DNA of 64,000 bases, from contig NZ_ML769314.1 of assembly GCF_009720365.1 (NCBI RefSeq), forward strand, positions 301,264-365,263, in the 5' to 3' direction. The notes under the pieces are model-generated. The model had not been told where the DNA came from and ran no database searches. It saw nothing but the letters and a program-made list of their open reading frames with translations. Position numbers and translations under genes: made by a program. The DNA comes from Catellatospora paridis (GTDB taxonomy: Bacteria; Actinomycetota; Actinomycetes; Mycobacteriales; Micromonosporaceae). Of the stretch, positions 9,935 to 48,386 are shown in pieces (position 1 is the first letter of the stretch; every line of letters starts with the position of its first letter).

Positions 9935-10576
9935 TCAGATGGTGCGCCGGAACGCGTACGCGATGGCGAACACGCCGAGCGCGATGACCACGACGACCGC
10001 GCCGTTGAGACCCACGAAACGCTGCCAGTCGCCGACCATGGCGCGGATGTCCGGCTCGGCGGTCGCCGACTCCACCAGGCCGCCGCCCACGCCGCCGCCC
10101 TCGACCGGCGCGGTCCCGCCCAGCAGGACCCCGGCCCCGCGCAGCGAGGCGTCCATGCTGAACCGGCCCAGGAACCAGGCGGCGGTGACCTTGCGCTTGT
10201 CGGGCTGCGCGGCCGGGCGGAACACCCGGGGGCCGCCCGCGGCCAGCGGGTAGAGGTCGTAGGTCTGCTTGTCCACGCCGTTGACCGCGCTCACCACGAC
10301 GAACTTCGGGCCGAGCTTGTCCTCGGCCGGGGCCTTGAGCGGCGAGGTCCCGCCGGCCAGCCAGTCCACCTCGCCCGCCAGCGCCGCGAACTGGCGCTGG
10401 TGCTGATCGGAGCGCAGCACGATGGGCGCGGTCAGCACGTCCGAGGAGATGGTGATGCTGCGCACCGTCGGCGACGGGCTGGGCTTCGGTGCCGGCGACG
10501 GCGTCGGCGCACCGAACGCGGGCGCGCCGAGCAGCAGAAGGGCTGCTGAGAACAGTCCCGCCGCGACTTTCAACAT
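9935..10576 (-). CDS. Secreted/membrane-anchored protein of unknown function
   Basis: A 213-residue protein I do not recognise. A signal peptide (LKVAAGLFSAALLLLGAPAFGAPT) is followed by a Pro/Ser linker, a folded domain beginning VRSITISSDVLTAPIVLRSDQHQRQFAALAGEVDWL, and a C-terminal transmembrane helix (GAVVVVIALGVFAIAYAFRR), so most of the protein would face outside. The folded part contains KVTAAWFLGRFSMDASL. The ATG at 10576 has GAGGGG six bases upstream and is preferred to a start nine codons earlier. It lies upstream of the LppM-like gene on the same strand. Confidence 0.7.
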   Translation of the reverse strand: MLKVAAGLFSAALLLLGAPAFGAPTPSPAPKPSPSPTVRSITISSDVLTAPIVLRSDQHQRQFAALAGEVDWLAGGTSPLKAPAEDKLGPKFVVVSAVNGVDKQTYDLYPLAAGGPRVFRPAAQPDKRKVTAAWFLGRFSMDASLRGAGVLLGGTAPVEGGGVGGGLVESATAEPDIRAMVGDWQRFVGLNGAVVVVIALGVFAIAYAFRRTI

Positions 10577-32952: not shown

Positions 32953-33033
32953 CAAGATCGCTCGATTTGCCAGGCAGGTGGGCGAAAAGCCGTCCAAGAT
33001 ACGCACAGGTGCCCGGCAAGTCGGATGATCTTG
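32953..33033. repeat. Family II element, copy 1 (81 nt)
   Basis: Long inverted repeat bounded by CAAGATC and GATCTTG, with arms related to GATCGCTCGACTTGCC. Read on the minus strand its core contains GCGTATCTTG and a TTTTCGCCC tract. It fills much of the 318-base gap after the E1 gene; the remainder shows no gene. Confidence 0.85.
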
Positions 33034-36668: not shown

Positions 36669-36747
36669 CGATCATCCGACTTGCCAGGCAGTCGCGCGTA
36701 TCTTGGCCGCGCTTTCCCCCATGTGCCAGGCAAGTCGAGCGATCTTG
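36669..36747. repeat. Family II element, copy 2 (79 nt)
   Basis: Arms GATCATCCGACTTGCC and GGCAAGTCGAGCGATC around a core with GCGTATCTTGG. It lies at the 3' end of the sulfatase gene. The left arm carries two changes relative to copy 3. Confidence 0.85.
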
Positions 36748-36774: not shown

Positions 36775-38448
36775 TCAGCGGGCGTACGCGGAGAGGAAGC
36801 GGTCGCGGAAGGCGTCCATGCGCCAGACGGGGGCGTCGGGGCCGGGGTTGAGGCCGTCCTGCCAGTTCCAGGCGGTGATCCGGTCGAGGACCGCCGGGTC
36901 GCGGGCGACCACGGTGATCGGCGAGTCGCGGCTGGCGTTTTGCCCGGACACCGACGGCGAGGGCTGGTGATCGCCGAGGAAGACCAGCACGAGGTCGTCG
37001 CCGCCGTACGTCTCCACGTAGGAGACCAGCGTGTTCACCGAGTACGTGATCGCGTTGCGGTAGGCGTGGCGGACCCGGTCGCGGTCGCGCTTCTCGACGA
37101 TCTCGGCGGGGTCGTCGGAGCCGGCGGCGGTGTCGTACACGGAGCCGTCGCCGACGGTGTCCCAGGGCAGCATCTTCGGCACGGGCTCCCAGGGCGAGTG
37201 GCTGGAGATCAGCGGGATCACCGCCATCAGCGGCAGGTGGCCGGGTGCGCGCTCGCGCTGCTGGAAGGTGTGCAGGGTGTACTGGTCGGGCATGGTCGCG
37301 AAGCTGTAGCGCGGTCCCTGGTAGCCGAGGTCGGGGGCGGTGTAGAGCTGGTCGTAGCCGTAGACCGCGCCCTCGGGCCACGGGGTGGTGGTGGCGGGCA
37401 TGACGGCGACGGTTCGCCACCCGGCCCGGCCGAACGCGGCGGGCAGGGTGAACCGGTCGCTGGCCATCATGGTCTGGTAGCGCTGCTGGTTGTCGATCCA
37501 CAGGCCGGACAGCAGCGTGGACTGGGCCAGCCAGCTGCCGCCGCCGGTGGTCGGCGAGGTGAGCCAGGCGCTGCGGGCGGTGTACCCGGCGGCGCGCAGC
37601 CGGGCGTTGCCGGCGTCGAGGGCGGGCCCGACCTGCGAGGTCAGTTCGGGGTCGGTGAGCGCGACCCGGCCGTAGCTCTCCACGAAGGCGACGATGACGT
37701 CCTTGCCGCGCAGCGCGGTCAGCAGATCCCCGGTGGGGGTGTCGCGGTACGCGTCGGCGGACAGCAGGGCCCCGAACACCCGCTCGTCCTGGGCGCCCGC
37801 GCGCACCTGGTTCACCTGGTCGTAGGAGTCGTGGGCGGCCACCGGGACGCCGGGCACCAGCTGCACGCCGGCCAGGGCGCAGGCGGTCCACGCGGCTGCG
37901 AGGCCGGCCACGGAGCGGGCGGCGGCGGTGCGGTGGCGCAGCGCGAGCCGGGCGGCGTGCCGGTACGCGGCAATGACCAGCAGCAGTACGGCGAGGGCGA
38001 GCAGCAGGGCGGCCGCGGCGGCGGCCCACATCGCGGCCGGCCCGCTGGACTGGCGCAGGTAGTCGGCCCCGGCGATGAGGAACGGCCAGTCGAGCACGGG
38101 GTGGAAGGGGCGGTCGAGCACCGCGGAGAAACCGAGACTGATGATCTTTAGGATGACCAGCAGGCCGAGCAGGGCGCCGGTCACCGGGACGGCGACGCGC
38201 CGGAACCGGGTCGGCAGCAGCACCGCCAGCGCGACGGCGAGCAGGCCGTCCACCGGGATGCGCAGGAACGCCGCGGGGGTGAGCCGGCCGAGTTCGTTCG
38301 GCACGACGAGCAGCACCGCCAGGAGCAGGACCGCCAGCCCGAGCAGCACCTGGCGCACCCTGCCCGGCGGCGGCGAAGGCGCGGCGTGCGCCGGATCAGG
38401 CTCGTTCTCGGGCGAAACGGGGGTGGCCGGATGGGTCGCGTCGAGCAT
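36775..38448 (-). CDS. Membrane-bound sulfatase/phosphoglycerol-transferase-like protein
   Basis: A 557-residue protein with about four to five N-terminal membrane helices (residues 30-200) and an extracytoplasmic alkaline-phosphatase-fold domain of the sulfatase superfamily (~235-550). Visible parts are KDVIVAFVESYGRVAL near 250, a candidate nucleophile Thr/Ser in TSPTTGGGSWLAQSTLLSG near 300, ISSHSPWEPVP near 412 and VLVFLGDHQPSPSVSG near 505 with metal-binding Asp-His. Relatives transfer glycerol-phosphate or phosphoethanolamine to surface glycans. It starts one base after ribA ends, so it belongs to the pterin-like cluster operon. Confidence 0.82.
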   Translation of the reverse strand: MLDATHPATPVSPENEPDPAHAAPSPPPGRVRQVLLGLAVLLLAVLLVVPNELGRLTPAAFLRIPVDGLLAVALAVLLPTRFRRVAVPVTGALLGLLVILKIISLGFSAVLDRPFHPVLDWPFLIAGADYLRQSSGPAAMWAAAAAALLLALAVLLLVIAAYRHAARLALRHRTAAARSVAGLAAAWTACALAGVQLVPGVPVAAHDSYDQVNQVRAGAQDERVFGALLSADAYRDTPTGDLLTALRGKDVIVAFVESYGRVALTDPELTSQVGPALDAGNARLRAAGYTARSAWLTSPTTGGGSWLAQSTLLSGLWIDNQQRYQTMMASDRFTLPAAFGRAGWRTVAVMPATTTPWPEGAVYGYDQLYTAPDLGYQGPRYSFATMPDQYTLHTFQQRERAPGHLPLMAVIPLISSHSPWEPVPKMLPWDTVGDGSVYDTAAGSDDPAEIVEKRDRDRVRHAYRNAITYSVNTLVSYVETYGGDDLVLVFLGDHQPSPSVSGQNASRDSPITVVARDPAVLDRITAWNWQDGLNPGPDAPVWRMDAFRDRFLSAYAR

Positions 38449-38449
38449 G

Positions 38450-39094
38450 TCAGCGGGCCGGGCGGAGCTGGAGGGTGTGCGCGGCGTGGCGGGCCTTGGT
38501 GGCCAGATAGCCGGCGTTGGCGGGGGACAGGTGCACCGCGGTCGGCACGCGCTCGGTCACCGTGACCCCCAGCCGGGCGAGCTGCTCGGCCTTGTCGGGG
38601 TTGTTGGACAGCAGCGCGACCCGGGACACGTCGAGGGCGTGCAGCATCTGCGCGGCGACCGTGTAGTCGCGCGCGTCCTCGTCGTGGCCGAGGGCGACGT
38701 TCGCCTCGTAGGTGTCCAGGCCGGTGTCCTGCAGCGCGTACGCCTCCATCTTGGCGTACAGGCCGATGCCGCGGCCCTCCTGGCGCAGGTAGAGCAGGAA
38801 TCCGCCGGCGACGGTGATGCGTTCGGCGGCCTCGCGCAGCTGCGGGCCGCAGTCGCAGCGCTGGCTGCCGAACACGTCCCCGGTCAGGCACTCGCTGTGC
38901 GGGCGCACCAGCGGGACGGGCAGGTCGTCGGCGTCGCGGCGCAGGGTCGTGGCGTGGTCGCCGAGCCCGAGCGCCAGGTGCTCGCGGCCGTCGGCCAGCC
39001 CGGTGAAGGTGATGACCCGGGCCATGGTGGTGTAGCCGTCGGGGAACCGCATCGGTACCTGGACCTGGGTGCGCACCGTCGCCAGGGGCAGCAT
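38450..39094 (-). CDS. ribA: GTP cyclohydrolase II (RibA)
   Basis: Opens GTP to 2,5-diamino-6-ribosylamino-4-pyrimidinone 5'-phosphate with release of formate and pyrophosphate. It has 214 residues as a stand-alone domain. Zinc Cys are in SECLTGDVFGSQRCDCG near 68-84; the active site is YLRQEGRGIGL near 103; the catalytic Tyr of KMEAYALQD near 122 is kept. In one Streptomyces paralogue this Tyr is replaced by Met and only a formylated product forms; here the full reaction is expected. It is not with ribE or ribH but within the PTPS-like cluster, five bases after the RibD_C gene. Confidence 0.93.
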   Translation of the reverse strand: MLPLATVRTQVQVPMRFPDGYTTMARVITFTGLADGREHLALGLGDHATTLRRDADDLPVPLVRPHSECLTGDVFGSQRCDCGPQLREAAERITVAGGFLLYLRQEGRGIGLYAKMEAYALQDTGLDTYEANVALGHDEDARDYTVAAQMLHALDVSRVALLSNNPDKAEQLARLGVTVTERVPTAVHLSPANAGYLATKARHAAHTLQLRPAR

Positions 39095-39099
39095 GCCGG

Positions 39100-39807
39100 T
39101 CACCGTTCTTCCTGGTCGGCGCTGTCGAACCGGGGCGACAGCGCGTAGCGCAGCAGCACCACGTCCCCGATCTGCTGGACGTCGGCCAGCTTCGCGCGCC
39201 GTCCAGGGTTCCACGGGAAGTCCCCGTCGTTGACGAAGCGGCTGGCCCGCGAGTCGCCGACGAAGAACGGGGCCACCACCAGGTGCAGCTCGTCGGCGAG
39301 GTCGGCGGTCAGGAACTGGGTGTGGATGGTGCCGCCGCCCTCGACCATCAGCCGGCACACGCCGCGGTCGTACAGATCCTCGGTCACCTGGCGCAGGTCC
39401 ACCGGCAGGCCGCCGTCGACCACGGTCGCCACGCCGCCGAGCTGCGCGCGGGCGTGCTCGACCCGCGGGCTGGCGCAGTAGACGATCTTCTCCGCGTCGC
39501 CGGCGGTGAAGAACGCGGCGCCCGGGTCCAGCTTGGCCTTCTCGGTGACGGTCACCTTGATGGGGCACTCGGGCACGCCGCGGGCCGTCCGGGCGTCGCG
39601 GCGGGCCTGGGTGCGCACCATCAGGCGCGGGTTGTCCCGGCGCACCGTGCGCGCGCCGACCAGGATCGCGTCGCACGACGCGCGGACCGCGTCGACCCGG
39701 TCGAAGTCGGCCGCGTTCGACAGCAGCAGCCGCTCGTCGGTCGCGCCGTCGAGGTAGCCGTCGATCGACATGCTGCAACTGAGCAGGACGTACGGGCGCT
39801 CACGCAT
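39100..39807 (-). CDS. RibD C-terminal (dihydrofolate-reductase-like) reductase
   Basis: A 235-residue NADPH reductase of the RibD_C family, which reduces the ribosyl side chain of pyrimidine intermediates to ribityl. It begins LLSCSMSIDGYLDGAT, has AILVGARTVRRDNPRL near 48 and the cofactor loop LMVEGGGTIHTQFL near 155. The deaminase half of bifunctional RibD is missing, as in archaeal and fungal reductases that act before deamination. ATG 39807 with GGGGTGG upstream is preferred to a GTG three codons earlier; it overlaps the end of the flippase-like gene, so translation is coupled. Confidence 0.88.
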   Translation of the reverse strand: MRERPYVLLSCSMSIDGYLDGATDERLLLSNAADFDRVDAVRASCDAILVGARTVRRDNPRLMVRTQARRDARTARGVPECPIKVTVTEKAKLDPGAAFFTAGDAEKIVYCASPRVEHARAQLGGVATVVDGGLPVDLRQVTEDLYDRGVCRLMVEGGGTIHTQFLTADLADELHLVVAPFFVGDSRASRFVNDGDFPWNPGRRAKLADVQQIGDVVLLRYALSPRFDSADQEER

Positions 39808-40768
39808 GCTGTCCACCCCGACTCTTGGTGCGTGCCAGCAGGACGGCGGCGCCGGGCAGCGCGGCGACCAGGCCCAGCACGCCGTAGGTGACGGCGGCTG
39901 CGACGCCCTGCGTGGAGGTCAGGCCGGCGGCGGCGAACGCCCAGGCCGCGACGCCTTCGCGGGGCCCCCAGCCGGCGATGTTCAGTGGCAGCGCCATGGC
40001 CAGCAGGGCCAGCTGCGTCAGCGGCACCAGCAGGGTCACCGGCGCGTCCGCGCCCGCGGTGCGGGCCGCGATCACGAACATGACGAGCTGTCCGGTCACG
40101 ACGACCGCCGAGGCGAGCCCGATGCCGATCCACCGCCGCCGGGTGAGCAGCACTTCACGGACATCGGTGTACGCCGACCGCAGCGCCGTCGCCCAGCGGG
40201 CGGACCGCCCGCGGGCCACCGCCCGCACGCCCAGCGCGACGGCCAGCCCGGTCGCGGCGACGACCGCGACGATCACGGGCATGCGGTCCCGGACCGGGGA
40301 CGGCAGCACCAGCAGCATCAGCAGTGAGGCGGCGACCTGCACGGTCAGCCCGATGGTGCGCTCCAGCACCACCGCTCGCACGGCCAGCCGGACGTCGCTG
40401 ATGTCCAGGCCGTGCCGTACCGCGCGGTGCACGTCGCCGACGACGCCGCCGGGCAGCGTCGTGTTGAGGAACAGGGAGCGGTAGTACGCCTTGACGGCCC
40501 GGCCGAGCGGCAGCCGCACGCCGAGGCCCTCGGCGACCAGGCTCCACCGCCAGGCGCAGCACACGGTGCTCAGCGCGCCGAGGCCGAGCGCGGCCAGCAG
40601 CGCGGGCCGGTCGACGAGGCGTACGCCGTCCAGGAACGGCCCGGTGCCCACCTGCCACACGAGCAGCGCGAGGATGAGCAGCCCGGCGGCGGCGCGCGCC
40701 CAGGCCCCGAGGCGACCCGCGGCGCGGCCCGAAGGCGGCAGGCGGACACCCGTCACGGCACGGTGCAA
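39800..40768 (-). CDS. Lysylphosphatidylglycerol synthase/flippase-like membrane protein (UPF0104)
   Basis: A 322-residue polytopic membrane protein of the UPF0104 / MprF-flippase-domain family, with about eight helices. Family marks are ALSTVCCAWRWSLVAEGLGV near 55, KAYYRSLFLNTTLPGGVVGDVHRAVRHG near 80-108 (the conserved NxxLPGGVGG-type loop) and NIAGWGPREGVAAWAF near 265. No synthetase domain is attached, so lipid or lipid-linked substrate movement is more likely than lysyl transfer. TTG 40768 is chosen because AGGAGG lies five bases before it. It overlaps the RibD_C start. Confidence 0.85.
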   Translation of the reverse strand: MHRAVTGVRLPPSGRAAGRLGAWARAAAGLLILALLVWQVGTGPFLDGVRLVDRPALLAALGLGALSTVCCAWRWSLVAEGLGVRLPLGRAVKAYYRSLFLNTTLPGGVVGDVHRAVRHGLDISDVRLAVRAVVLERTIGLTVQVAASLLMLLVLPSPVRDRMPVIVAVVAATGLAVALGVRAVARGRSARWATALRSAYTDVREVLLTRRRWIGIGLASAVVVTGQLVMFVIAARTAGADAPVTLLVPLTQLALLAMALPLNIAGWGPREGVAAWAFAAAGLTSTQGVAAAVTYGVLGLVAALPGAAVLLARTKSRGGQHA

Positions 40769-40847
40769 CGCGACCTCCTGTCCAGACTCTTCATCCTTCC
40801 TAGAGGTACCGTCCCCGCGTGTCTGTGGATTTATGCACACAGCGCCG

Positions 40848-41906
40848 TCATCGGGCCACTGGACCGGGCTGGGCCACCCGGGAGAGCACCGCGCCGACCT
40901 CTTCCGCGGTGCGGGTCCAGCCGGTGAGGTGAGCGCGTCGCGCGCGGGCCGCGTCCCGTAGCCGGTCGCGCAGGTCCGGTTCGGTGAGCCAGCGGCGCAG
41001 CGCGTCGCCGAGCGCCGGACTGTCGGGTGCGACGAGCAGGCCGGGCACACTGCCGTCCGGGGCCGTGCCCAGCGCTTCGGGCAGCCCCTGGACGTCGCAG
41101 GCCAGCACCGGGATGCCCCGGGCCAGCGCTTCGGTGACGACCATGCCATAGCTCTCCCCGCGCGAGGGCAGCACGAGCAGATCCGCGACGCCGTACGCGG
41201 CGGCCAAGCCCTCACCCGTACGCACGCCCGCGAAGGTGATCCGGTCGGCGACCGGGTGCGCCCGCAGTTGTGCCGCGTACGCCGGGTCGCGATCGGGCGA
41301 GCCGACGAAGGTGCAGCTCCAGGGTAGCCCGGTGAGCGTGTCCAGGGCGTCGAGAAGCAGGTGCTGGCCCTTGTGCGGGGCGAGCGCGGCCACGCAAAGC
41401 AGCCGGTTCCCGGCGGGCGACCCGGAGGCGAGGGGCGCGGGGTCGACGCCGGGTGGGGCGGCGTGGACGCGGGCGGGCGGCAGGGCGTACGCCTCGATGG
41501 CGCGCTCGCGGCACCACCGGCTGGTGGTGACGACGGCGGCCGCCGCCCGCAGCACCCGGGCCTCGCCGGGCCGCAGGCCCGGGTCGTCGTCGTCGCCGAA
41601 CAGCATGTGCGCGAGCACGACCGGCCGCAGCCGGGGCGTGCACGCGGCCAGCACGTCCGGCGCGGCGACGGCGACGAGTCCGTCGAGCAGCACGACCGCG
41701 TCGTCGGGCAGCGCCGCGAGCTGCCCGGCCAGCCGGGTGAGGTCGGCCGGGCCGGGAGTGGGCCACGCGCCGGGCACGGGGTGCTCGTGCACCGTCCAGC
41801 CGGACGCGGCCAGGCTGTCGCAGACGCGCCGGTCGTAGACGTTGCCGCCGCTGGGCGCGGCCGGGTCGTCGACCCCGCCCGGCAGGACGACGTGGACGGT
41901 CCTCAC
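40848..41906 (-). CDS. Glycosyltransferase family 4
   Basis: A 352-residue GT-B retaining glycosyltransferase. The acceptor domain starts VHVVLPGGVDDPAAPSGGNVYDRRVC; the nucleotide-sugar domain has RLLCVAALAPHKGQHLLLDAL near 178 and the E-x7-E motif in PSRGESYGMVVTEALARGIPVLA near 262-285. The donor sugar is not readable. GTG 41906 (MRTVHVV) is chosen for homology and an AAAGGG upstream; the longer frame would include a hairpin (41921-41970). It lies in the PTPS-like cluster. Confidence 0.9.
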   Translation of the reverse strand: MRTVHVVLPGGVDDPAAPSGGNVYDRRVCDSLAASGWTVHEHPVPGAWPTPGPADLTRLAGQLAALPDDAVVLLDGLVAVAAPDVLAACTPRLRPVVLAHMLFGDDDDPGLRPGEARVLRAAAAVVTTSRWCRERAIEAYALPPARVHAAPPGVDPAPLASGSPAGNRLLCVAALAPHKGQHLLLDALDTLTGLPWSCTFVGSPDRDPAYAAQLRAHPVADRITFAGVRTGEGLAAAYGVADLLVLPSRGESYGMVVTEALARGIPVLACDVQGLPEALGTAPDGSVPGLLVAPDSPALGDALRRWLTEPDLRDRLRDAARARRAHLTGWTRTAEEVGAVLSRVAQPGPVAR

Positions 41907-41920
41907 CCGTCGGCCCTTTC

Positions 41921-41970
41921 GGATCTTGCGCACTTCGTGCGGCCAGGGCGACACGAAGTGCACAAGATCC
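41921..41970. repeat. 19-bp inverted repeat inside the cluster
   Basis: GGATCTTGCGCACTTCGTG (41921-41939) and its complement at 41952-41970 differ at one base. It lies between the PTPS-like gene and the GT4 start, so it may attenuate or split the operon. Confidence 0.75.
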
Positions 41971-42018
41971 GGGTGCCGGGTGGCCGGACCCGGCCCCGTG
42001 GGCGGGCGCGGCGCATGC

Positions 42019-42417
42019 TCACAGGGGCCGCTCGTAGCTGGCCCAGGCGATGTGCGACTCGTGCAGCGTCACCGCGATCCCGGCCAGCCCGCGCGCGTTC
42101 TCGCCGAACGCGCCCGCGTGCACCCGGGCCGCCAGCCGGTCCGCGATGACCTGGGCCAGCTTCTCGGTCGTGGTGTTCACGCCCGCGAACGCGGGGTCGT
42201 CGTCGAGGTTGCGCAGGTTCAGCGCGCCGACTATGGCGTTGAGCTCCTGCGACGCGGCGGCGATGTCGACCACGATGTCGTCGGGGTCGAGTTCGGCGCG
42301 CTTGAACGTGGCGTCGACGACGAACGTCGCGCCGTGCAGGCGCTGCGCCGGGCCGAAGACCTCGCCCCGGAAGCTGTGGGCGATCATCATGTGGTCGCGG
42401 ACCGTCACGCTGAACAT
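42019..42417 (-). CDS. PTPS/QueD-fold protein with degenerate active site
   Basis: A 132-residue protein of the 6-pyruvoyl-tetrahydropterin synthase / QueD family. The fold is recognisable from [41 protein letters not shown] and the C-terminal [14 protein letters not shown]. Against QueD, zinc His14 and His28 are kept but the third zinc ligand is Ala30, the catalytic Cys position is Ala24, and the catalytic Asp-His pair (LDHR) reads Asn67-Leu68. It therefore probably does not carry out the canonical reaction. It follows the MDR dehydrogenase by five bases. It may bind a pterin or pyrimidine or catalyse a different step. Confidence 0.82.
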
Positions 42418-42422
42418 GGGGG

Positions 42423-43403
42423 TCACTCTCCGTCGTAGCTGATGGTGTGGCACAGGGCGGGCAGGCTGCCGTCGGCGAGGGCGGCCAGCACCTCGGGCAG
42501 CCGGTCGAAGCTCGACTCGCCGGACAGCAGCGCGTCGAAGGCCGGGTCGCGCAGCAGGTCCAGGGCGATCGCGAGCCGGTCGGCGTAGGAGCGGCGCGCG
42601 GCGCGGGCCGGGGAGACCGTGCCGACCTGGCTGCCGCGGATGGTCAGCCGACCGGAGTGGAAGGCGCCGCCCAGGGACAGGTTCACCTGGCGGTCGCCGT
42701 ACCAGCTCAGCTCGACCACGGTGCCCTCCGGGGCCAGCAGGTCGAGCGCACGCTGCAGCCCGGCTCCGCTGGCCGAGGCGTGGAAGACCAGGTCGTTGCC
42801 GCCGTCGGCGGACTCGGGCGAGGCGAACCCGACGCCGAGCGCCGCCGCGACCGCGGCCCGCTCCGGGTCCACGTCGACCAGCTGCACCGATACCCCGGGG
42901 AAACGCGCCAGCAGCGCCGCGACGCAGCAGCCGACCATGCCCGCGCCGAGCACCGCGATCCGGTCGCCGACCAGCGGCGGGCCGTCCCACAGCGCGTTGA
43001 CCGCGGTCTCCACGGTGCCCGCGAGCACGGCGCGCCGCGCGGGCACGCCGTCGGGCACCGGCACCACCGCGCCCGCCGGGACGACGTAGCGGGTCTGGTG
43101 CGGGTACAGGCAGAACACGGTGCGTCCGAGCAGCTCCGGCGGGCCCTGCTCGACGACGCCGACGTTGAGGTAGCCGTACTTGACCGGTCCCGGGAAGTCG
43201 CCCTCCTGGAAGGGGGCGCGCATCACGGCGTACTGGCCGGGCGGCACCTCGCCGCGGAAGACCAGCGTCTCGGTGCCCCGGCTCACGCCGGAGTGGACGG
43301 TGCGCACCAGCACCTCGCCGGGGCCCGGATCGGGCAGCGCCACGGGGCGGATCTCGCCCGCGCCGGGCGCGGCCGTCCAGAACGCACGCGCGTAGGATGC
43401 CAT
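42423..43403 (-). CDS. Zinc-independent MDR-family dehydrogenase
   Basis: A 326-residue medium-chain dehydrogenase/reductase. The N-terminal GroES-like part starts [29 protein letters not shown]; the loop that gives the catalytic zinc Cys in alcohol dehydrogenases reads SGVSRGTE, without Cys, as in BchC-like members. The Rossmann motif is [16 protein letters not shown] near 148. The four-Cys structural zinc lobe is absent. Annotation as a zinc alcohol dehydrogenase would thus be misleading. It is first in the minus-strand cluster and 44 bases from the divergent CDP-alcohol transferase. Confidence 0.85.
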
Positions 43404-43447
43404 CGGCTTCCTCTCCTCGGATCAAGGTCGAACCTAACGGAGGTACG

Positions 43448-44221
43448 GTGCCGCCGGTGAGACCGGGCCCGGTGATCGGGCTGATCCTCCAGTTCGCCAT
43501 GCTCGCGCTGCTGTCGGCGGCGGTCGGCCTCGGCCCCGCCGGGTGGGCCGCCGGGATCGCGTACGCGCTCGGCTCGTGCGTGCTGCTGACCCGGGCGATG
43601 CACACCGCCGGGCTGGTCGCGTTCGGACCCGCCGACCTGGTCACCCTGACCCGGGCCGCGCTCGTCGGCTGCGTCACGGCGCTGACCGCGGCCTCCTTCG
43701 CGGGCGACGTGCCGGTGCCGGTGCTGGTCGGGATCACGGTCGTGGCGCTGGTGCTCGACGCGGTCGACGGCAAGGTCGCGCGGCGTACGGCCACCGCGTC
43801 GGCGTTCGGCGCGCGGTTCGACATGGAGGTCGACGCGTTCCTCATCCTGGTGCTGAGCTGCTACGTCTTCCCGGCGGCCGGCTCGTGGGTGCTCGCGATC
43901 GGCGCGATGCGTTACGTGTACGTAGTCGCGACCTGGTTGCTGCCGTGGCTGCGCGGGCAGCTGTTCCCCCGGTACTGGCGCAAGGTGGTGGCCGCGATCC
44001 AGGGCATCGTGCTGGCGACCGCCGCCGCGGACGCGCTGCCCCGGCCGGTGGTCGTCGTCGCGCTCGGGGGCGCGCTCGCCCTGCTCACCGAGTCCTTCGG
44101 CCGTGACGTGGTCTACCTCTGGCGGCACCGCGCCGCCACGACCGGCGCGATCCGCCGAGCCGCCGCCCAGACCCGGGTCATGACAGGCGCACCCGGGGGC
44201 GTTCGCGGCGATCGGGCGTAG
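43448..44221 (+). CDS. CDP-alcohol phosphatidyltransferase
   Basis: A 257-residue integral-membrane enzyme that joins an alcohol to a CDP-activated partner. The signature D-x2-D-G-x2-A-R-x8-G-x3-D-x3-D is complete in [29 protein letters not shown] near residues 100-128. About six helices surround it. The alcohol substrate is unknown. It is transcribed away from the MDR/PTPS-like operon across a 44-base gap, suggesting shared control. GTG 43448 lies four bases after GGAGG; a second GTG three codons on is possible. Confidence 0.88.
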
Positions 44222-44262
44222 CGCTCACCCACCTGGCGTCGCCGACGAGGTGGCGCGCTGCG

Positions 44263-45006
44263 CTACCGCAGGCGGGCGTAGACGTCGCCGGAGCGGCCGA
44301 GCGCGCGGAAGCGCTGCTCCAGCAGCTGCACCAGGCCTGCCGCGTCGAGCCACTGCTCGCTTGCGAAGCGCATGGTCTCGACGGGGGCGTAGTTGTACTC
44401 GTACCCGCCGAGCCGCTCCACCAGGTCCAGGGCGGTGAGGGCGGCGTCGTGGGCGAACGGCAGGTACTCGAAGGACAGTGCGCGCAGCGGCCGGGACAGC
44501 CCGCGCAGCACGTCCGCCTCGAAGCCCTCGACGTCGATCTTGCAGAAGGCCGGCTCGCCGTACGTCGCGATGAGATCGTCCAAGGTGACCACCTCGACCT
44601 CCACCGAGCGGTCCCAGCGGACCTCGGCGAAGCGCTCGTCGGCCGCGGTCACCGACTCGATCCACTCGTGCGACAGCGAGGAGACGGTCGGCGTCGCCGA
44701 GGACAGCGCGAGCGAGGCCGTGCCCGGCCGCGCGCCGACGGCGGTGGGCAGGATGGTCACGCCCGGGTCGCGGCCGAAGAACAGGCGCAGCACCCGCAGG
44801 CAGTCGGGCTGCGGCTCGATCGCGAGCACCCGCGCACCGAGCCGCCGCCACGGGCGCACCCGGCTGCCGACGTGCGCGCCGACGTCGAAGGCGAGGTCAC
44901 CGGGCCCGATGAACTGGCCGTAGAAGCGGCGCATCCGCCGGTGGCGGCCCGGGATGCCGTGGTACATCACGAGGGACCTGGCCATTCCCCGGGCGCGAGC
45001 GAGCAT
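44263..45006 (-). CDS. FkbM-family methyltransferase
   Basis: A 247-residue SAM-dependent methyltransferase. The SAM motif is DLAFDVGAHVGSRVRPW near residues 36-52, followed by VLAIEPQPDCLRVL, and the FkbM signature is AFCKIDVEGFEADVLRGL near 155-172. Such enzymes methylate hydroxyls of sugars or natural products. It could modify the product of the neighbouring glycan-like cluster, but it is convergent with the CDP-alcohol transferase, so this is only a suggestion. TAGGCT lies five bases before the ATG. Confidence 0.88.
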   Translation of the reverse strand: MLARARGMARSLVMYHGIPGRHRRMRRFYGQFIGPGDLAFDVGAHVGSRVRPWRRLGARVLAIEPQPDCLRVLRLFFGRDPGVTILPTAVGARPGTASLALSSATPTVSSLSHEWIESVTAADERFAEVRWDRSVEVEVVTLDDLIATYGEPAFCKIDVEGFEADVLRGLSRPLRALSFEYLPFAHDAALTALDLVERLGGYEYNYAPVETMRFASEQWLDAAGLVQLLEQRFRALGRSGDVYARLR

Positions 45007-48307: not shown

Positions 48308-48386
48308 TTGATCGCTCGACTTGCCCGGCACATGTGCGTATCTTGAACCGCCTTTCGCCCAGGTGCCGGGCAAGTCGAGCGATCTT
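48308..48386. repeat. Family II element, copy 3 (79 nt)
   Basis: The best-preserved copy: arms starting GATCGCTCGACTTGCCCGGC pair with their complement over about 22 of 24 bases. The core holds GCGTATCTTG and TTTCGCCC. It lies 22 bases after the amylase stop. Confidence 0.9.

Follow-up and report, generated by a model that had tools for sequence, protein, structure and literature searches.

What do enzymes of the riboflavin and pterin families make when their genes are packed together with those of a glycosyltransferase and several membrane proteins? The question is raised by a locus of the actinomycete Catellatospora paridis (NCBI RefSeq assembly GCF_009720365.1, contig NZ_ML769314.1), lying in a stretch of 64,000 nucleotides (positions 301,264 to 365,263, forward strand) that we call the window. 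Transcribed there from the minus strand, in this order, are genes for a medium-chain dehydrogenase/reductase (MDR), a PTPS-like protein, a GT4 glycosyltransferase, a flippase-like protein, a RibD_C reductase, RibA and a sulfatase, while a gene of the CDP-alcohol phosphatidyltransferase family diverges from the MDR gene. We find that these genes belong to a real, widespread and uncharacterised pathway. It is probably a dedicated route of bacteria and haloarchaea that derives from guanosine triphosphate (GTP) and leads through 2,5-diamino-6-(phosphoribosylamino)pyrimidinone (DARP) to a decorated pyrimidine or pterin, which would most likely come to lie outside the membrane.

The genes form a conserved unit, and their grouping exceeds chance. 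A profile of the PTPS protein, scanned against 84,980 species genomes, gives at least 586 confirmed relatives; among the 80 best of these, all actinobacterial by title and some ending at contig ends, the locus holds an MDR in 80, a GT4 in 79, a CDP-alcohol transferase in 77, a flippase-like gene in 76, a class I methyltransferase in 75 and RibA in 70, together with a creatininase in 59, RibD_C in 29, the sulfatase in 12 and an FkbM-type methyltransferase in 3. In the 64 of these 80 loci with 8 kb on both sides, the counts are 64 for MDR, 63 each for GT4 and flippase, 62 for the CDP-alcohol transferase, 60 for RibA, 50 for creatininase and 24 for RibD_C. The genes also diverge in step, with Spearman correlations, a statistic that ignores shared species history, of 0.87-0.94 among MDR, PTPS, GT4, methyltransferase and CDP-alcohol transferase. 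Against these core genes, the values are 0.76-0.86 for the flippase, 0.74-0.88 for RibA and 0.39-0.54 for RibD_C, the weaker co-divergence of the last two being as expected of exchangeable entry enzymes. An earlier note, made from the letters of this DNA alone, had looked to conserved co-occurrence across actinomycetes, and the unit does recur in the best 80 loci rather than being scattered in relatives. Among the 25 largest families listed, the only further conserved neighbours to be prominent are Streptomyces-centred ones. A second GT4 gene lies beyond the creatininase in six loci, all of one family, f15 (L156, L166, L167, L168, L170, L172).

The unit extends well beyond this set, to haloarchaea, Chromatiaceae, Rhodobacterales and rhizobia. 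Eleven bacterial plasmids carry a version of it, from Streptomyces, Candidatus Thiodictyon, Methylosinus, Peteryoungia, Neorhizobium, Agrobacterium (a pAt plasmid), two Rhodobacterales, Microbacterium, Rhizobium and Arthrobacter (a record without annotation), with MDR and PTPS in all 11, GT4 in 10, RibD_C in 8, the CDP-alcohol transferase in 6, and the flippase and RibA in 5 each. Nine haloarchaeal loci hold an MDR in every case, a PTPS-family match beside it in 8 (incomplete in L133, not found in L129), a methyltransferase in 8, GT4 in 7, the CDP-alcohol transferase in 5, GTP cyclohydrolase IIa in 4 and a creatininase in 1. Two Rhodobacterales loci (L042, L044) show a ribokinase/PfkB-type kinase gene beside MDR or RibD_C, and L044 also has an inositol-monophosphatase-family gene. 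Two Streptomyces plasmids (L035, L036) carry lone PTPS-IV genes (about 10001-10426) without the rest of the cluster; on both plasmids the surrounding genes are of the MEKHLA, cupin, MBL-fold, BTAD-regulator and sigma-factor kinds. No relative was found in viral contigs scanned with the single window PTPS sequence.

In a further sample of 40 stretches, picked around PTPS matches rather than at random and overlapping the best 80 at least once (L161/L079), so that the two sets are not fully independent, MDR adjoins PTPS in 36. Six of these 36 (L137, L139, L140, L141, L143, L146) show a more divergent version from another actinomycete family (f32), arranged RibD_C-MDR-PTPS-GT4, in which the PTPS has the sequence FGPAxxxHGH and retains the third His. 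The other four stretches serve as a control: all have a QueD-type PTPS (CxxxHGH) and show no match to MDR or GT4. RibA and RibD matches nevertheless lie about 5-7 kb away in three of the four, and RibA near a PTPS-family gene therefore does not by itself identify the unit. Among 121 genomes sampled from the order, 36 match the window PTPS protein, 2 of them weakly, and in a phylum sample 100 of 396 match the PTPS profile, mostly weakly, the weak ones not being counted as members.

What the pathway starts from can be approached through its entry enzymes. A RibA with the catalytic Tyr yields deformylated DARP, whereas Met RibA and GTP cyclohydrolase IIa stop at the formylated FAPy, which creatininase-family enzymes deformylate. 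The FAPy activity of Met RibA was reportedly described by Spoonamore in 2006. The pertinent part of PMC3509567 does no more than cite that work on Met RibA. The window RibA keeps both the Tyr and the zinc cysteines (CX10CXC; motif EGRGIGLYAKMEAYALQ), scoring 256.5 bits against PRK00393 (cut-off 148) and 187.3 bits, below the cut-off of 205.85, against TIGR00505. We surveyed 136 MDR-bearing loci, namely 100 that include the window and the 36 further stretches, reading the catalytic residue at what we take to be the place of E. coli Tyr105. All 66 loci whose RibA lacks the Tyr (58 Met, 7 His, 1 Cys) contain a creatininase, against 0 of the 30 with a Tyr RibA, a pattern that is consistent, although not statistically independent. 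The remaining loci include 4 with GTP cyclohydrolase IIa in place of RibA and 1 whose RibA could not be read; at L150:12191-12600 RibA lies in two pieces and no residue was assigned. The zinc cysteines are kept in 96 of 96 readable RibAs, and all three metal motifs searched for are kept in 59 of 67 creatininases. In the tree of RibA proteins, the clade with Met is sister to that with His or Cys, and the Tyr was therefore possibly lost once.

Stronger evidence than this association comes from the exchange of RibA for the unrelated GTP cyclohydrolase IIa. The haloarchaeal enzyme scores 320 bits (cut-off 306), and on Haloarcula and Natrarchaeobaculum plasmids its gene stands directly before that of the MDR. 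In the reciprocal test, just 5 of 72,556 plasmid records match this cyclohydrolase (E 1e-20), 3 from Haloarcula and 2 from Natrarchaeobaculum, and in all five it adjoins MDR, the fifth being judged from coordinates. The three entry routes (Tyr RibA, Tyr-less RibA with creatininase, and GTP cyclohydrolase IIa) would meet at a diaminopyrimidine, and because the entry step is exchangeable in this way, the conversion of GTP into a diaminopyrimidine is the most likely start of the pathway. The earlier note had proposed that the window RibA, with its Tyr kept and no creatininase nearby, completes deformylation itself, which fits the survey within its one or two independent contrasts; that some archaeal versions start with GTP cyclohydrolase IIa had escaped it, as had the nature of the PTPS.

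This protein carries the FGPAQ signature and is a PTPS-IV, a subfamily of COG0720; a profile search gives as a solved relative 3d7j, the "Uncharacterized protein SCO6650" of Streptomyces coelicolor (E 2.2e-66). Its active site is altered. Where the QueD motif CxxxHGH has its Cys there is an Ala, and the third His is an Ala too, giving the AxxxHGA that is found in 123 of 142 loci examined. CxxxHGH occurs in 4 loci, all without MDR, and the haloarchaeal members read HSH (six in the motif count). The QueD chain 4ntk itself has Ala at the Cys place. In alignment with 4ntk, the Asp-His pair, whose role in QueD we take as given, is Asn-Leu in the window and mostly Asn-Tyr in relatives. Against the curated QueD model, the window protein reaches 34.8 bits, below the cut-off of 89.25. 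By contrast, Glu120, which we take from QueD to be the binder of the 2-amino-4-oxo ring, is invariant in 41 of 41 aligned proteins. An AlphaFold2 model of PTPS-IV (pLDDT 91.3) is confident apart from the FGPAQ loop, at about residues 11-30.

In the partner of PTPS-IV, MDR, the zinc ligands typical of alcohol dehydrogenases are missing from nearly all loci, with SxGTE and YGY in the regions where the catalytic Cys and the GHE ligands would be expected. The Rossmann part of this MDR is matched by alcohol, polyol and threonine dehydrogenases. BchC is a secondary-alcohol dehydrogenase. It is the top curated model, far below cut-off, for the window and rhizobial MDR, though not for the haloarchaeal one. 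The MDR plausibly oxidises a side-chain alcohol. The RibD_C protein, which has solved relatives in 5xv5 and 6p8c, scores best against the archaeal DARP-reductase model TIGR01508 (140.5 bits, below the cut-off of 186.45; ribD_Cterm 122). For the membrane part, the motif DxxDGxxAR..GxxxDxxxD is intact in the window CDP-alcohol protein and in 111 of 113 family members examined, with invariant residues in the alignment. With a UPF0104 protein present in 76 of the best 80 loci, the simplest reading of the actinobacterial versions is attachment to a lipid and outward movement, and such attachment is likely there.

From the gene content, its conservation, the families, the active-site residues and the entry-enzyme exchange observed above, we infer a pathway of five steps, every reaction of which is a deduction, those of the third and fifth steps most of all. 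RibA, with its Tyr and zinc cysteines, would turn GTP directly into DARP, a first intermediate that is well supported, and RibD_C would reduce DARP to the ribityl compound without deamination. As a specific hypothesis for the middle of the route, the zinc-less MDR would oxidise a side-chain hydroxyl, and PTPS-IV, with the binding Glu kept and the QueD Cys gone, would close or rearrange the ring; if the 2'-OH is the one oxidised, the free 5-amino group could close onto the ketone and give a pterin of the dihydroneopterin-phosphate type without FolE. GT4 would then add a sugar and a methyltransferase a methyl group. Finally, the CDP-alcohol transferase may form a phospholipid from the alcohol, or from its phosphate, and UPF0104 may carry the product outward. 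The fullest form of this scheme, a FolE-independent pterin route ending in a glycosylated pterin phospholipid outside the membrane and hence a new lipid-anchored, redox-active class in bacteria and haloarchaea, is tentative, and we consider it unlikely as a whole. A gene for a cytochrome b, by profile match in Thiodictyon a cytochrome b561 (PF01292), lies beside RibD_C in Thiodictyon (L037), Peteryoungia (L039), Agrobacterium (L041) and Rhizobium (L130). Were the pterin lipid-anchored, the adjacent cytochrome would serve it in these four loci of Pseudomonadota.

Several observations weigh against the proposed pathway. Neither RibA nor GTP cyclohydrolase IIa is seen in 35 of the 136 MDR loci, some of whose stretches end at contig ends, and the Tyr/creatininase association amounts on the MDR tree to a single independent contrast with support, or two at the most, which cannot reach significance. 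An MDR without zinc ligands would equally suit a reductase. RibD_C has the lowest co-divergence of all and is present in only 29 of the best 80 loci; for these reasons the enzyme of the second step may be encoded elsewhere, or the step may be specific to some lineages. The earlier note had RibA and RibD_C together make the ribityl compound; a dedicated unit is supported, and the part of RibD_C in it may not be constant. The attachment of the pyrimidine to a lipid or glycan, suggested in the same note, likewise stays a proposal, and that to a lipid is read from family names. Profile scores of the CDP-alcohol transferase are similarly weak towards PssA, PgsA and cholinephosphotransferase, and such scores do not separate transfer to an alcohol from transfer to an alcohol phosphate or the reverse reaction. 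Outside the best 80, moreover, the membrane genes are less constant, with the CDP-alcohol transferase in 6 and the flippase in 5 of the 11 bacterial plasmid versions, and, in the nine haloarchaeal loci, the former in 5 and no match to the latter.

This inconstancy bears on the alternative that the product, a pterin or pyrimidine carrying sugar and methyl groups, is soluble or secreted, for instance as a screening pigment, an antibiotic or a redox mediator, with the CDP-alcohol transferase and flippase-like genes serving some other membrane change. GT4 and methyltransferase follow PTPS in most of the best 80 loci, pterin glycosides are known in cyanobacteria, and no match to either membrane gene appears in Rhodobacterales L042 and L044, Methylosinus L038, Neorhizobium L040 or haloarchaeal L132, L134 and L177 (the last by annotation). 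We nonetheless regard a soluble product as rather improbable, given how nearly constant both membrane genes are in the best 80 loci, where their divergence tracks the core, and given that the CDP-alcohol transferase reaches more than half of the haloarchaeal versions. A redundant supply of riboflavin precursors through an extra RibA and RibD_C would in turn explain why both families are present with RibA motifs intact, but the genome already has ribD-ribE-ribBA-ribH together on another contig, C26 (recognised by profile for RibA and RibH and by eye for RibD and RibE), and no RibE, RibH or deaminase was found among the scanned proteins of 36775-45006. Lumazine synthase occurs in 46 of the 47 genomes with PTPS-IV. 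In some versions GTP cyclohydrolase IIa even replaces RibA, and S. coelicolor SCO6655, a GTP cyclohydrolase II, is listed in the pertinent part of PMC2853524 among genes anticorrelated (-0.61) with predicted flux. Riboflavin synthesis was set aside on account of the separate operon and the missing RibE and RibH, and it is the least probable of the explanations weighed; as the earlier note supposed, the cluster serves another end, its RibA being one of three RibA-type genes in the genome. The third of these (L127:7453-8073, on contig C16) is a lone gene with the Tyr kept, lying by eye between glycosidase-like and transporter-like genes, and its product branches beside Micromonospora-type cluster RibAs.

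Synthesis of coenzyme F420 or FO, to which PTPS-IV and its neighbours might contribute, has more in its favour, although we hold it to be very improbable too. FO synthesis draws on a related ribitylaminopyrimidine, and haloarchaea make F420. CofH/FbiC is found above cut-off in 43 of the 47 PTPS-IV genomes; a PPOX-class "F420-dependent oxidoreductase" (PNPOx-type) lies 1.3 kb beyond ribA in Streptomyces (L034:16420-16866), and in Haloarcula marismortui a gene of the PNPOx family lies close to the creatininase (L133:1220-1672). The co-occurrence is, however, weak evidence, F420 being common in Actinomycetota, and rhizobia with the full unit have no known F420 synthesis. The other four genomes (G022, G025, G115, G128; 97-100% complete) gave no CofH match at E 1e-20 and yet carry the unit, or else its core (L158, L176, L148, L147); G022 is also the single genome of the 47 without lumazine synthase, and its assembly is therefore possibly wanting. 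In the plasmid records examined, none of the neighbouring genes is annotated as an FO synthase. F420 as a general role of PTPS-IV was set aside on the four genomes without CofH, although PMC5041015, in its relevant passage, mentions an unpublished F420 assignment of PTPS-IV.

Some of these neighbours, RibA and RibD_C, are already in print. The section of PMC5445326 (AGeNNT) on a 561-sequence PTPS-IV cluster gives the FGPAQ signature and names PF00925 and PF01872 among its neighbours, features that the published sets share with the window; it calls PF00925 GTP cyclohydrolase I/FolE2, where the present enzyme is GTP cyclohydrolase II. Apart from the unpublished F420 remark, the relevant passages of PMC5445326 and PMC5041015 (Zallot et al. 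2016) propose no pathway, nor do they mention the membrane genes, the creatininase and GTP cyclohydrolase IIa exchanges or the archaeal versions. In a literature search of open-licence papers, neither the pathway as a whole nor its product was found described. The corresponding cluster of S. coelicolor would be SCO6650-SCO6655, judging from the numbering and from the gene order of other Streptomyces loci (PTPS, GT4, methyltransferase, flippase, creatininase, RibA). Those loci combine Met RibA with a creatininase, while the window has a Tyr RibA with no creatininase found, RibD_C in the operon and the class I methyltransferase missing. By its place in this order, SCO6652 would be the methyltransferase, and the relevant data of PMC3610822 give it log2 values of 0.8, 4.3 and 4.1 at 24, 48 and 72 h for the second versus the first mycelium, a rise that hints at a developmental role. 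With the archaeal and fungal riboflavin order, cyclohydrolase followed by DARP reductase, the unit has the first two enzyme families in common, but it is without deaminase, RibE and RibH, its downstream enzymes are unrelated, and the rib operon is separate. Compared with QueD/PTPS-I, the window PTPS retains the T-fold, two histidines of the zinc-binding HGH motif and the binding Glu, but not the catalytic Cys, the Asp-His pair, the third His or the same neighbours.

The window locus itself (Table 1) was analysed over 36775-44221, stretched to 45006. All eight genes of 36775-44221 read through without internal stops, and their positions, families and tight packing agree with the earlier note in a Pfam and reading-frame check, as does the divergent gap of 44 bases between the CDP-alcohol transferase and MDR genes. 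The gaps, whose lengths depend on the chosen start codons, are 5 bases for MDR/PTPS, 112 for PTPS/GT4, 79 for GT4/flippase, 5 for RibD_C/RibA and 1 for RibA/sulfatase, with an overlap of 8 between flippase and RibD_C. The note had omitted the FkbM-type gene, 41 bases beyond the CDP-alcohol gene, which is present in all three Catellatospora loci (the window, L046, L047) as well as in L039 (Peteryoungia) and L130 (Rhizobium); the usual class I methyltransferase was not found at the window locus. Sulfatase homologues occur in L039 and L130, and also in L041 (Agrobacterium).

Table 1. Features of the window locus (positions in the window; families are Pfam matches above cut-offs).
Feature	Position	Strand	Evidence
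Membrane sulfatase/alkaline-phosphatase-superfamily protein, 557 aa, accessory	36775..38448	-	PF00884 E 2.1e-08
RibA, GTP cyclohydrolase II, 214 aa	38450..39094	-	PF00925 E 1.4e-55; EGRGIGLYAKMEAYALQ
Stand-alone RibD_C reductase without deaminase domain, 235 aa	39100..39807	-	PF01872 E 1.1e-40
UPF0104/LPG_synthase_TM flippase-like membrane protein, 322 aa, start uncertain	39800..40768	-	PF03706 E 3.3e-29
GT4 glycosyltransferase, 352 aa	40848..41906	-	PF00534 (Glycos_transf_1), PF13692
Hairpin (inverted repeat, 18-bp arms), intra-operon, PTPS/GT4 gap	41922..41969		z -5.6
PTPS-IV (FGPAQ) T-fold protein, 132 aa	42019..42417	-	PF01242 E 9.7e-24
MDR, 326 aa	42423..43403	-	PF00107 (ADH_zinc_N) 33.5 bits, cut-off 31.8
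CDP-alcohol phosphatidyltransferase family protein, 257 aa, divergent	43448..44221	+	PF01066 (CDP-OH_P_transf) E 7.3e-10
FkbM-type methyltransferase, 247 aa	44263..45006	-	PF05050, TIGR01444

The window genome measures 8.97 Mb, and its PTPS protein is 98% identical to the counterpart in C. vulcania. The hairpin between PTPS and GT4 is also present in C. vulcania (L046), while C. sichuanensis (L047), whose PTPS and GT4 genes overlap, lacks it, and a genome search gave no second place with both arms together. Separately, a short inverted element whose arms resemble GCCAGGCAAGTC occurs between genes of the window in three copies, at 32964-33022, 36678-36736 and 48318-48376; its pattern is matched 7 times against 1.84 expected, a number reached by 2 of 100 shuffles.

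PTPS-IV, the structure 3D7J and the Tyr-less RibA of Streptomyces have long been known without a shared function, and they can now be placed in one proposed pathway. The enzymes that replace one another at its entry indicate with what chemistry it begins, so that its product can be searched for. If that product is indeed a membrane-borne pterin or pyrimidine, soil actinomycetes, rhizobia and haloarchaea would contain a cellular molecule of a new kind.

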